Positions 14,405 to 33,054 of a stretch of DNA of 64,000 bases are shown one piece after another. The position numbers were made by a program, and so were the translations under genes. Below the pieces are notes generated by a model. It had not been told where the DNA came from. It saw only the letters and a list, made by a program, of their open reading frames with translations, and did not search any database. The stretch's first letter is position 1. Every line of letters begins with the position of its first letter. The stretch comes from Natrinema sp. DC36 (GTDB taxonomy: Archaea > Halobacteriota > Halobacteria > Halobacteriales > Natrialbaceae): assembly GCF_020405225.1 (NCBI RefSeq), contig NZ_CP084472.1:2728001-2792000 (forward strand). Direction: 5' to 3'.

Positions 14405-14479
14405 GAGTTGGGGTCGTTCAATTCGCAGTGAATGGAACAGTGGGCTAGTGAGAACAAGTGAAACGAAGCGTCCTACTAT

Positions 14480-14761
14480 CGTGGCAACAGGGAATCGCCA
14501 CGCCCTCCCCAGCCGATTTCTCCTCACGGGCGCTGCGAGGCGGTGAAACCGCCTCGACGGTCGCGGCGCGTAGCGCCGCGCTCTGCCCGTTCGGATGGTT
14601 CGCGGGACCTCCGGTCCCGCGCTATTCGCTTTCGAGGCGCTCCCGTCGTCTTCGCGCGGCGACGCCGCGCGAATGGTCTGCGAGACCTCCGGTCTCGCAC
14701 TAGTCGCGCCTCGCCGACAGCGCGCGCCACCGCACGTGGGTTGGCCGGCCCGGAGTGAAAC
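14480..14761 (+). repeat. extragenic modular repeat, copy A, with five perfect hairpins
   Basis: Conserved left block 14480-14518 matches 37 of 39 bases of 20228-20266 on the other strand. Conserved right block 14713-14761 matches 42 of 49 bases of 20108-20156. Between them lie five perfect stem-loops, each with a 3-nt loop: 14536-14556 (9 bp), 14562-14580 (8 bp), 14601-14621 (9 bp), 14651-14673 (10 bp) and 14679-14699 (9 bp). No protein-like frame crosses it. No target duplication or terminal inverted repeat is obvious. It could be a miniature mobile element or a structured transcript. Confidence 0.75.
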
Positions 14762-14875
14762 GTAGTTCCCCCACTACTGAACGATTGGTACGGGAACTCA
14801 CGTTAGAACGCGCCAATAGCGCTACTACCGGAGCAAAACGGGGAATATCGAACCGGACCCGGTTCGAATCGATCG

Positions 14876-20107: not shown

Positions 20108-20266
20108 GTCTCACTTCGGACTGGTCAACCGGCGTGCGGTGGCGCGCGCTGTCGGCCGACCGAGTAGTAGCGAGGGCGGCCGACGATATTGCGCGAGGGA
20201 TGAGTGAGCGAGTACAACGAGCGAACGAATCGGCTGGGGAGGGCGTGGTGATTCCCCGTTGCCACG
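20108..20266 (-). repeat. extragenic modular repeat, copy B (inverted relative to copy A)
   Basis: Blocks 20228-20266 and 20108-20156 are, on the minus strand, the same two conserved ends as copy A at 14480-14761, in the same order. The core here is 71 nt instead of 194 nt; it has one long-loop hairpin from GTCGGCCG to CGGCCGAC rather than five short-loop hairpins. It fills most of the 20025-20424 gap; I see nothing else there. The two copies face each other about 5.3 kb apart. Confidence 0.7.
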
Positions 20267-32845: not shown

Positions 32846-33054
32846 GACCTTTTGCCGAGCGACCGAACGAAGTGAGGGAGCGCAGCGCAAAAGGTCGATC
32901 AAAAGCACTCCTCCTTCCCCGCCAGCCGCGCCAAGCGCGGCTTCTGGGTCAGTCGTCGGCCCGCTCGCTCACCCTTCGGGTTCGCTCGCGGTCATACCGA
33001 GTGACCACCTGCCCTCCCCCGAGTTGGACGGCTCTCGCGTTGCTCGAGCCGTCC
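32846..33054. repeat. hairpin-rich intergenic segment
   Basis: Three perfect inverted repeats lie in the 333-nt gap: GACCTTTTGC at 32846-32855 with its complement at 32887-32896 (10-bp stem, 31-nt interior); 32924-32942 (8-bp stem, 3-nt loop CAA); and 33026-33054 (9-bp stem, 11-nt loop). Between them are runs rich in GAGCG/CGCTC. No gene is seen. It resembles the modular elements elsewhere in the window but lacks the two conserved end blocks. Confidence 0.6.

Follow-up and report, generated by a model that had tools for sequence, protein, structure and literature searches.

The window analysed here, a 64-kb stretch of the genome of Natrinema sp. DC36, raises the question of what kind of element can pack five perfect hairpins into one intergenic region, flanked by a UspA-like gene and an AAA-ATPase gene, and of how their stems stay perfect. 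An initial annotation had proposed an extragenic element in which two conserved end blocks enclose the hairpins. All five stem-loops are present, with stems of 8–10 bp and 3-nt loops, spanning exactly 164 nt, and the ACC-TCC-GGT apex said to be common to two of them is borne out by the sequence. In 500 base shuffles of the element, counting hairpins of at least 7 bp with loops of 3–5 nt and one mismatch allowed, the mean number expected by chance was 0.61 and the maximum 3. Moreover, 5 of the 15 perfect hairpins of the window with at least 8 bp and a 3-nt loop fall in this element, whose structural (folding) strand is the window minus strand. The features are as follows, in window coordinates.

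14427–14785, minus strand: whole element, its extended and more variable flanks included (85 own-genome copies aligned there)
14480–14518, plus strand: left conserved block CGTGGCAACAGGGAATCGCCACGCCCTCCCCAGCCGATT (on the structural strand ...AATCGGYTGGGGAGGGYGTGG...), defined by copies in the host and class genomes
14519–14623, plus strand: double-hairpin module M1 (TCTCCTCACGGG...GCGCTA) with its first apex expanded (presence/absence in L226 and L225)
14526–14590, plus strand: outer stem ACGGGC (14526–14531)/GCCCGT (14585–14590), with hairpins 1 and 2 nested at its apex (sequence and fold; related copies carry GGGCGCTG/CAGCGCCC there)
14536–14556, plus strand: hairpin 1, 9 bp, loop GAA (CGGGACGGC/GCCGTCCCG instead in other copies)
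14562–14580, plus strand: hairpin 2, 8 bp, loop GTA (perfect-hairpin listing)
14601–14621, plus strand: hairpin 3, 9 bp, loop TCC (GGA on the structural strand), whose inner 6-bp arms covary between copies
14651–14673, plus strand: hairpin 4, 10 bp, loop GAC (perfect-hairpin listing)
14679–14699, plus strand: hairpin 5, 9 bp, loop TCC, 79% alike to the hairpin 3 stretch
14718–14747, plus strand: right conserved block CAGCGCGCGCCACCGCACG...GGTTGGCC (5' end GTGCGGTGGCGCGCGCTG when read on the structural strand), supported by 26 matches to GCGCCACCGCACGTGGGTTGGC and by the right-end alignment
about 20113–20266, plus strand: second, ordinary copy in opposite orientation, its structural strand being window plus (match of model R1)

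The proposed end blocks are conserved. With up to 3 mismatches, the left block has 82 copies in the host genome (reversed control 0) and the right block has its 26 matches there (control 0). A chance cluster is ruled out by these 82 copies against a control of 0 together with the shuffles (0.6 expected against five hairpins). Beyond the blocks, family similarity is weaker and reaches ~14427 and ~14785; in the alignment of the 85 own-genome copies, this similarity outside the core declines yet is real. A short direct repeat, AGTGAAACGAAG at 14457–14468 and AGTGAAACGTAG at 14754–14765, flanks the element and corresponds to GTGAGACG in the family consensus.

The search for further copies that the initial annotation had recommended revealed many. 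Of 391 Halobacteria genomes, 156 have the left block; Natrinema, Haloterrigena, Natronococcus, Haladaptatus, Halorussus, Halococcus, Halogranum and Haloarcula are among the named hosts. In this class search, genomes of the host genus have from 0 to 91 left-block hits (the host itself 91), and some relatives have none. All 82 host copies lie on the 4.11-Mb chromosome, whereas the six remaining contigs (0.99 Mb, ~16 expected) have none; likewise, every copy of two relatives (68/68 and 62/62) is on contig C1. The family is a non-coding dispersed repeat with tens to more than 100 chromosomal copies in many haloarchaea, as counted by pattern and model searches. Copies showed no replication-strand polarity, orientation autocorrelation being non-significant in three genomes. 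A gene cassette between close copy pairs was also considered and rejected, the intervening genes being ordinary.

Tandem-GA fold of the ordinary core

The defining structure of the family is not the five hairpins but the tandem-GA hairpin core of the other copies, the one at 20.1 kb included. In most copies the middle is short and of one kind. These ordinary copies have in common a core of ~107 nt that folds on the strand opposite window plus, where it runs GGTGGCGCGCGCTG-[arm D]-CGYGCGAGGGATGA-[spacer hairpin B]-AATCGGYTGGGGAGGGYGTGG. It should be noted that the invariance of this core is partly circular through the extraction motifs, whereas the pairing tests are free of that circularity. 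Spacer B follows the grammar T-GA-nn-GA-nn-GA-nn-[NNN]-n'n'-GA-n'n'-GA-n'n'-GA-A, in which tandem GA stands opposite tandem GA every four nucleotides, with two free Watson-Crick pairs between and a 3-nt loop. Such a fold is possible on one strand only, because the opposite strand would have C.T mismatches.

Of the free dinucleotides, 88 of 96 were paired in the host genome, where shuffles averaged 52 and peaked at 66, and 145 of 156 in other genomes, where shuffles averaged 78 and peaked at 97. An independent pattern search that left the dinucleotides free gave 107 Watson-Crick pairs out of 124, based on 62 strings from Halobacteria, de-duplicated per genome. Over 30 aligned cores, pairing reached 96.7% of cells against 72.3% after shuffling, and covariation was 0.644 against 0.202 shuffled and at most 0.126 slid. 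The compensatory base changes for which an alignment of many copies had been suggested are therefore strong. The ordinary core folds on one strand, and its fold is conserved while the sequence changes; it is a covarying secondary structure of the kind found in structured ncRNA gene families.

Further regularities accompany the fold. On the structural strand, G.T wobbles outnumber A.C (26 against 4), YR dinucleotides next to GA are almost absent, 27 of 42 loops are GNA, and 41 of 52 distinct hairpins have 3-nt loops. Two conserved segments, GCGAGGGATGA and GGYTGGGGAGG, are predicted to be unpaired. A coding or background effect was rejected as the source of tandem-GA hairpins, since control searches with other dinucleotides yielded few fully paired hits or none (two for TC, which are these very hairpins seen from the opposite strand, and two for CG).

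One intergenic region of the window, 32853–33000, contains two tandem-GA hairpins outside the family, GACCGAACGAAGTGAGGGA near 32861 (plus strand) and GAGCGAACCCGAAGGGTGAGCGAG near 32966–32989 (minus strand); the hairpin grammar is therefore not confined to the family.

Hairpin modules, inherited positions and a sister family

How, then, does the focal copy relate to this core? Model R1, the covariance model built from ordinary cores, matches the second copy of the window at 20141–20248 with 110.8 bits (E 5e-17, this copy being itself among the 30 training sequences) but gives the focal copy only 18.7 bits (E 0.29). The focal copy is without GCGAGGGATGA, and its interior consists of M1, with two further hairpins at the first apex, plus a right half that is 95% common with a copy at 3.107 Mb. 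M1 directly follows CCCCARCCGATT in 33 copies and stands in other contexts in 7; several M1 copies sit at the apex of a tandem-GA hairpin, as seen directly at L057 and L064. At one locus of two sister genomes (L225 and L226), the sole difference is a 62-nt M1, a clean presence/absence. The inner arms of hairpin 3 occur as four matched variants (GGAACC/GGTTCC, GGGACC/GGTCCC, GAGACC/GGTCTC and GAAACC/GGTTTC), with 254 of 258 pairs being Watson-Crick over 43 copies. The five focal hairpins are thus exchangeable modules that replaced the lost core between the end blocks, and the matched arm variants and module exchange indicate that perfect stems reflect matched exchange or replacement rather than a fixed sequence.

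The comparison with a ~94% identical relative (G394) extends this picture to whole copies. Of 16 host copies compared in a 400-kb stretch, ~13 have a same-site counterpart, in which the interior and often one flank are replaced while the surrounding DNA is ~87–95% identical; at L036, the copy has shrunk to a right-end remnant. Copies mostly keep their positions between related species with their interiors replaced, which is the pattern of old inherited positions combined with ectopic recombination or conversion between copies. The initial annotation had rightly weighed gene conversion and structural constraint as explanations for the perfect stems, but the recent spread it also offered is unsupported in the host genome. 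Moreover, an inversion between the two genomes (own C1 2663235–2671410 against G394 C1 2157320–2165556) has its breakpoints in two inverted copies, L032 and L055, and is a case of element-mediated recombination.

Alongside singlets, 12 tight inverted doublets with spacers of 74–130 nt were found among model hits in several genomes, with the left blocks facing each other in all of them. In the host, all six pairs less than 3 kb apart in the pattern search are also left-block-facing. One host doublet lies at C1 2495968–2496277, further doublets are L302–L312, and the opposite arrangement was never seen. The two ends of single copies are unrelated. No clean pair of empty and occupied sites was found, and terminal inverted repeats or target duplications were not seen in the flank alignments, which include no clean empty site.

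All g30 genomes listed contain a sister motif, GGYTGGGGAGGYGTGAGG, in up to 176 copies; this genus is probably Halorubrum, because the best plasmid match of the sister family is from Halorubrum. Sister copies have the same block order, to which they add a 3' domain and more perfect hairpins with 3-nt loops. The two families are homologous, since the ordinary-core model matches sister loci of other genera with E values as good as 4e-8. Among the sampled genomes of genus g19, four have the sister family only, with at most two stray hits to the block of this family, and two have this family only. The g30 sister copies of L281–L285 (in G260) have long conserved upstream stretches with two TATA-like boxes, TATTTAAA and TTATAAA, and may represent a recent amplification.

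Nature of the fold, dispersal and known systems

Our best reading, on which we are evenly divided between belief and doubt, is that of an old, REPIN- and PATE-like, non-autonomous and non-coding chromosomal repeat, retained because of how one of its strands folds, of which the focal copy is a remodelled example. The structural strand, when single-stranded during replication, recombination or repair, would fold compactly into hairpins that have GNA triloops and tandem sheared G.A pairs. This fold may have been the handle for a recombinase, since lost or still to be found, that dispersed singlets and inverted doublets through single-stranded DNA hairpins, by analogy with REPs/REPINs and PATEs. 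Copies would afterwards have changed at their existing sites, through ectopic recombination or gene conversion and through the swapping of entire hairpin modules; we propose that stems stay perfect because such an exchange replaces each stem as a matched pair.

Does the fold act as DNA or as RNA? We rate single-stranded DNA somewhat higher, given the GNA triloops, the mostly 3-nt loops, the avoidance of YR next to GA, the inverted doublets and the apex-nested modules. GNA mini-hairpins are exceptionally stable in DNA (PMC4686876). Against this, standard DNA parameters do not predict tandem-GA hairpins, and the conserved segments predicted to be unpaired and the RNA energy model suit RNA at least equally.

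The strongest alternative, which we regard as possible but clearly less probable than the preferred reading, is a multi-copy structured ncRNA, in which the structural strand would be transcribed and the ~107-nt core with its optional hairpins would form an RNA or ribonucleoprotein scaffold. The strand-specific covariation, the G.U-type wobble and the conserved blocks predicted to be unpaired are consistent with it, as are RNA minimum energies of -6.9 kcal/mol for this strand and -2.9 kcal/mol for its complement, the structural strand having the lower value in 86 of 90 segments. RNA is further favoured by partial TATA-like boxes in g30, whose sister copies often have a TTTATAA-like box 10–20 nt upstream of the 5' end, and a haloarchaeal PATE, reported to be strongly transcribed in one direction, has been likened to an ncRNA (PMC10544981). 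However, the g30 box is too near for the 5' block to be transcribed if archaeal TATA spacing applies, and Natrinema-type copies have, isolated matches aside, no TATA-like box within 140 nt of their 5' end. In addition, interiors are wildly different, some copies (the focal one included) are without the core, some relatives are without copies, and Rfam 15 gave no covariance-model match above the gathering score, and hence no known RNA family, the best sub-threshold matches being chance-like.

A second alternative dispenses with selection: quasi-palindrome template-switch correction and gene conversion alone would have homogenised the stems. Haloarchaea are polyploid, with efficient gene conversion, and the plain hairpins are nearly always perfect, with rare wobble intermediates; the perfection of plain Watson-Crick stems could indeed come from palindrome-correcting mutation. 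We nevertheless consider homogenisation alone unlikely as an explanation, as it fails to predict the GNA loops, the 26:4 wobble excess and the invariant one-strand tandem G.A mismatches every 4 nt, which count against it because correction would remove mismatches.

The preferred reading of an old repeat also has to be set against current mobility. An active derivative of IS200/IS605 (a PATE proper), or a REP/REPIN moved by a resident Y1 (RAYT-like) transposase, would account for the palindromes, for single copies without terminal inverted repeats or visible target duplication, and for inverted doublets like those of REPINs; the apex-nested modules recall the SMR elements described inside PATEs (PMC3119063). 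Yet the Y1 transposase (PF01797) has no match in the host, despite 91 left-block hits, or in five other element-rich genomes (G107, G308, G234, G192 and G077, with 36–47 copies each), and none of the 11 TnpB-type matches of the host carries the element or its ends (best core E 0.46). Positions are mostly inherited, and the element is absent from host plasmids and from phage records. This alternative is improbable, and no more credible than homogenisation. Reverse transcriptase (PF00078/RVT_1) has no match in the host and is present in 5 of the 391 class genomes, and in no copy of the family do the blocks enclose a transposase ORF. There is thus no support for a known mobiliser active today, with Y1, reverse transcriptase and TnpB as the candidates considered: matches to the first two are absent from the host, its TnpB-type loci lack the element, and phage records lack a copy. 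Phage or plasmid origin is ruled against by the absence of phage records and the few plasmid records with the element. IMG/VR gave one hit, L209, which was put down to chance, since its phage-like genes are ordinary and nothing else in it points to the element.

A role as terminators of transcription or as 3'-UTR hairpins for the neighbouring genes is very improbable, for although these intergenic copies lie between convergent more often than divergent gene pairs (35 against 13), flanking genes show no strand preference (3' end towards the element for 56 left-hand and 50 right-hand genes), as expected if insertions merely avoid promoters, and no T-run follows the stems.

Among known systems, the old-repeat reading finds its closest likenesses in PATEs and REPINs. 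PATEs of Haloquadratum and other haloarchaea (PMC3119063) are also short, non-coding, high-copy and palindromic, with heterogeneous interiors and nested insertions; they show no terminal inverted repeats or target duplication, nor were any seen in the flank alignments here. Their palindromes, however, are near-terminal and related to IS605-type ends, whereas those of the present family fill the interior and host TnpB-type loci are without the element; the passages of PMC3119063 consulted make no mention of a tandem-GA hairpin grammar. The SMR-A of Haloquadratum sits inside the palindromes of another element, as M1 modules do, but SMRs are ~110 bp with terminal inverted repeats, whereas M1 is a 62-nt double hairpin without them. 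Bacterial REP/BIME/REPIN sequences (PMC2817692, PMC3116915) are similarly intergenic, palindromic, mosaic, chromosomal and patchy between relatives, with singlets and inverted doublets; the doublet as a unit is found here too. The REP/REPIN unit is 20–40 nt with a GTAG/CGTC tag, in contrast to a ~107-nt core without a tag, and its cognate Y1 (RAYT) is absent from the host and the five rich genomes. The family resembles REPINs and PATEs in its working, yet lacks what defines either (no RAYT-type gene; no IS605 relation found). Nor is it a classical MITE, which has terminal inverted repeats and a target-site duplication, the ends of single copies here being unrelated, or a retroelement-borne repeat, given the absence of a resident reverse transcriptase from the host. 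It is best described as a dispersed palindromic repeat whose structural grammar is undescribed in the open-access literature searched, which held no description of the family or its motifs either.

Fungal mitochondrial double-hairpin elements are small mobile units of two perfect hairpins that insert in intergenic DNA or in other hairpins; they resemble the present elements in this, but belong to another domain of life. As for the mismatches, Li, Zon and Wilson are said to have described in 1991 tandem sheared G.A duplexes in a pyrimidine-GA-purine context, a rule that matches the one found here. The loop rule likewise matches that of GNA-triloop DNA hairpins (PMC4686876). Both systems are laboratory oligonucleotides, whereas the pattern described here is genome-spread and covarying.

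With somewhat less confidence than in the old-repeat reading, we suggest a class-wide superfamily with a new architecture, namely tandem sheared G.A pairs every four nucleotides, covarying Watson-Crick dinucleotides and GNA triloops, with 20–170 copies in rich genomes, selected as single-stranded DNA or RNA folds and served by a dedicated binding or recombination protein yet to be found. If this is true, much haloarchaeal intergenic repeat DNA would be one structurally defined superfamily missed by annotation and Rfam, and would show tandem sheared G.A helices occurring naturally, with covariation, in a very salty cytoplasm. The dispersal of REP-like repeats without a resident RAYT transposase would become directly testable, and the family would mark sites of ectopic recombination, as at the inversion that ends at two inverted copies between the host and its closest relative. 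The hairpin grammar would also be searchable by rule instead of by sequence. Two loci of a genome of another genus in the same taxonomic family (L250 and L251; G032 C1:2000800–2002900 and 1527000–1528900) consist of 55/56-bp units repeated in tandem, every unit having a tandem-GA hairpin, and a few matches to the tandem-GA pattern lie outside Halobacteria, in G515, G523, G531, G587, G591 and G637 (family f13, same phylum).
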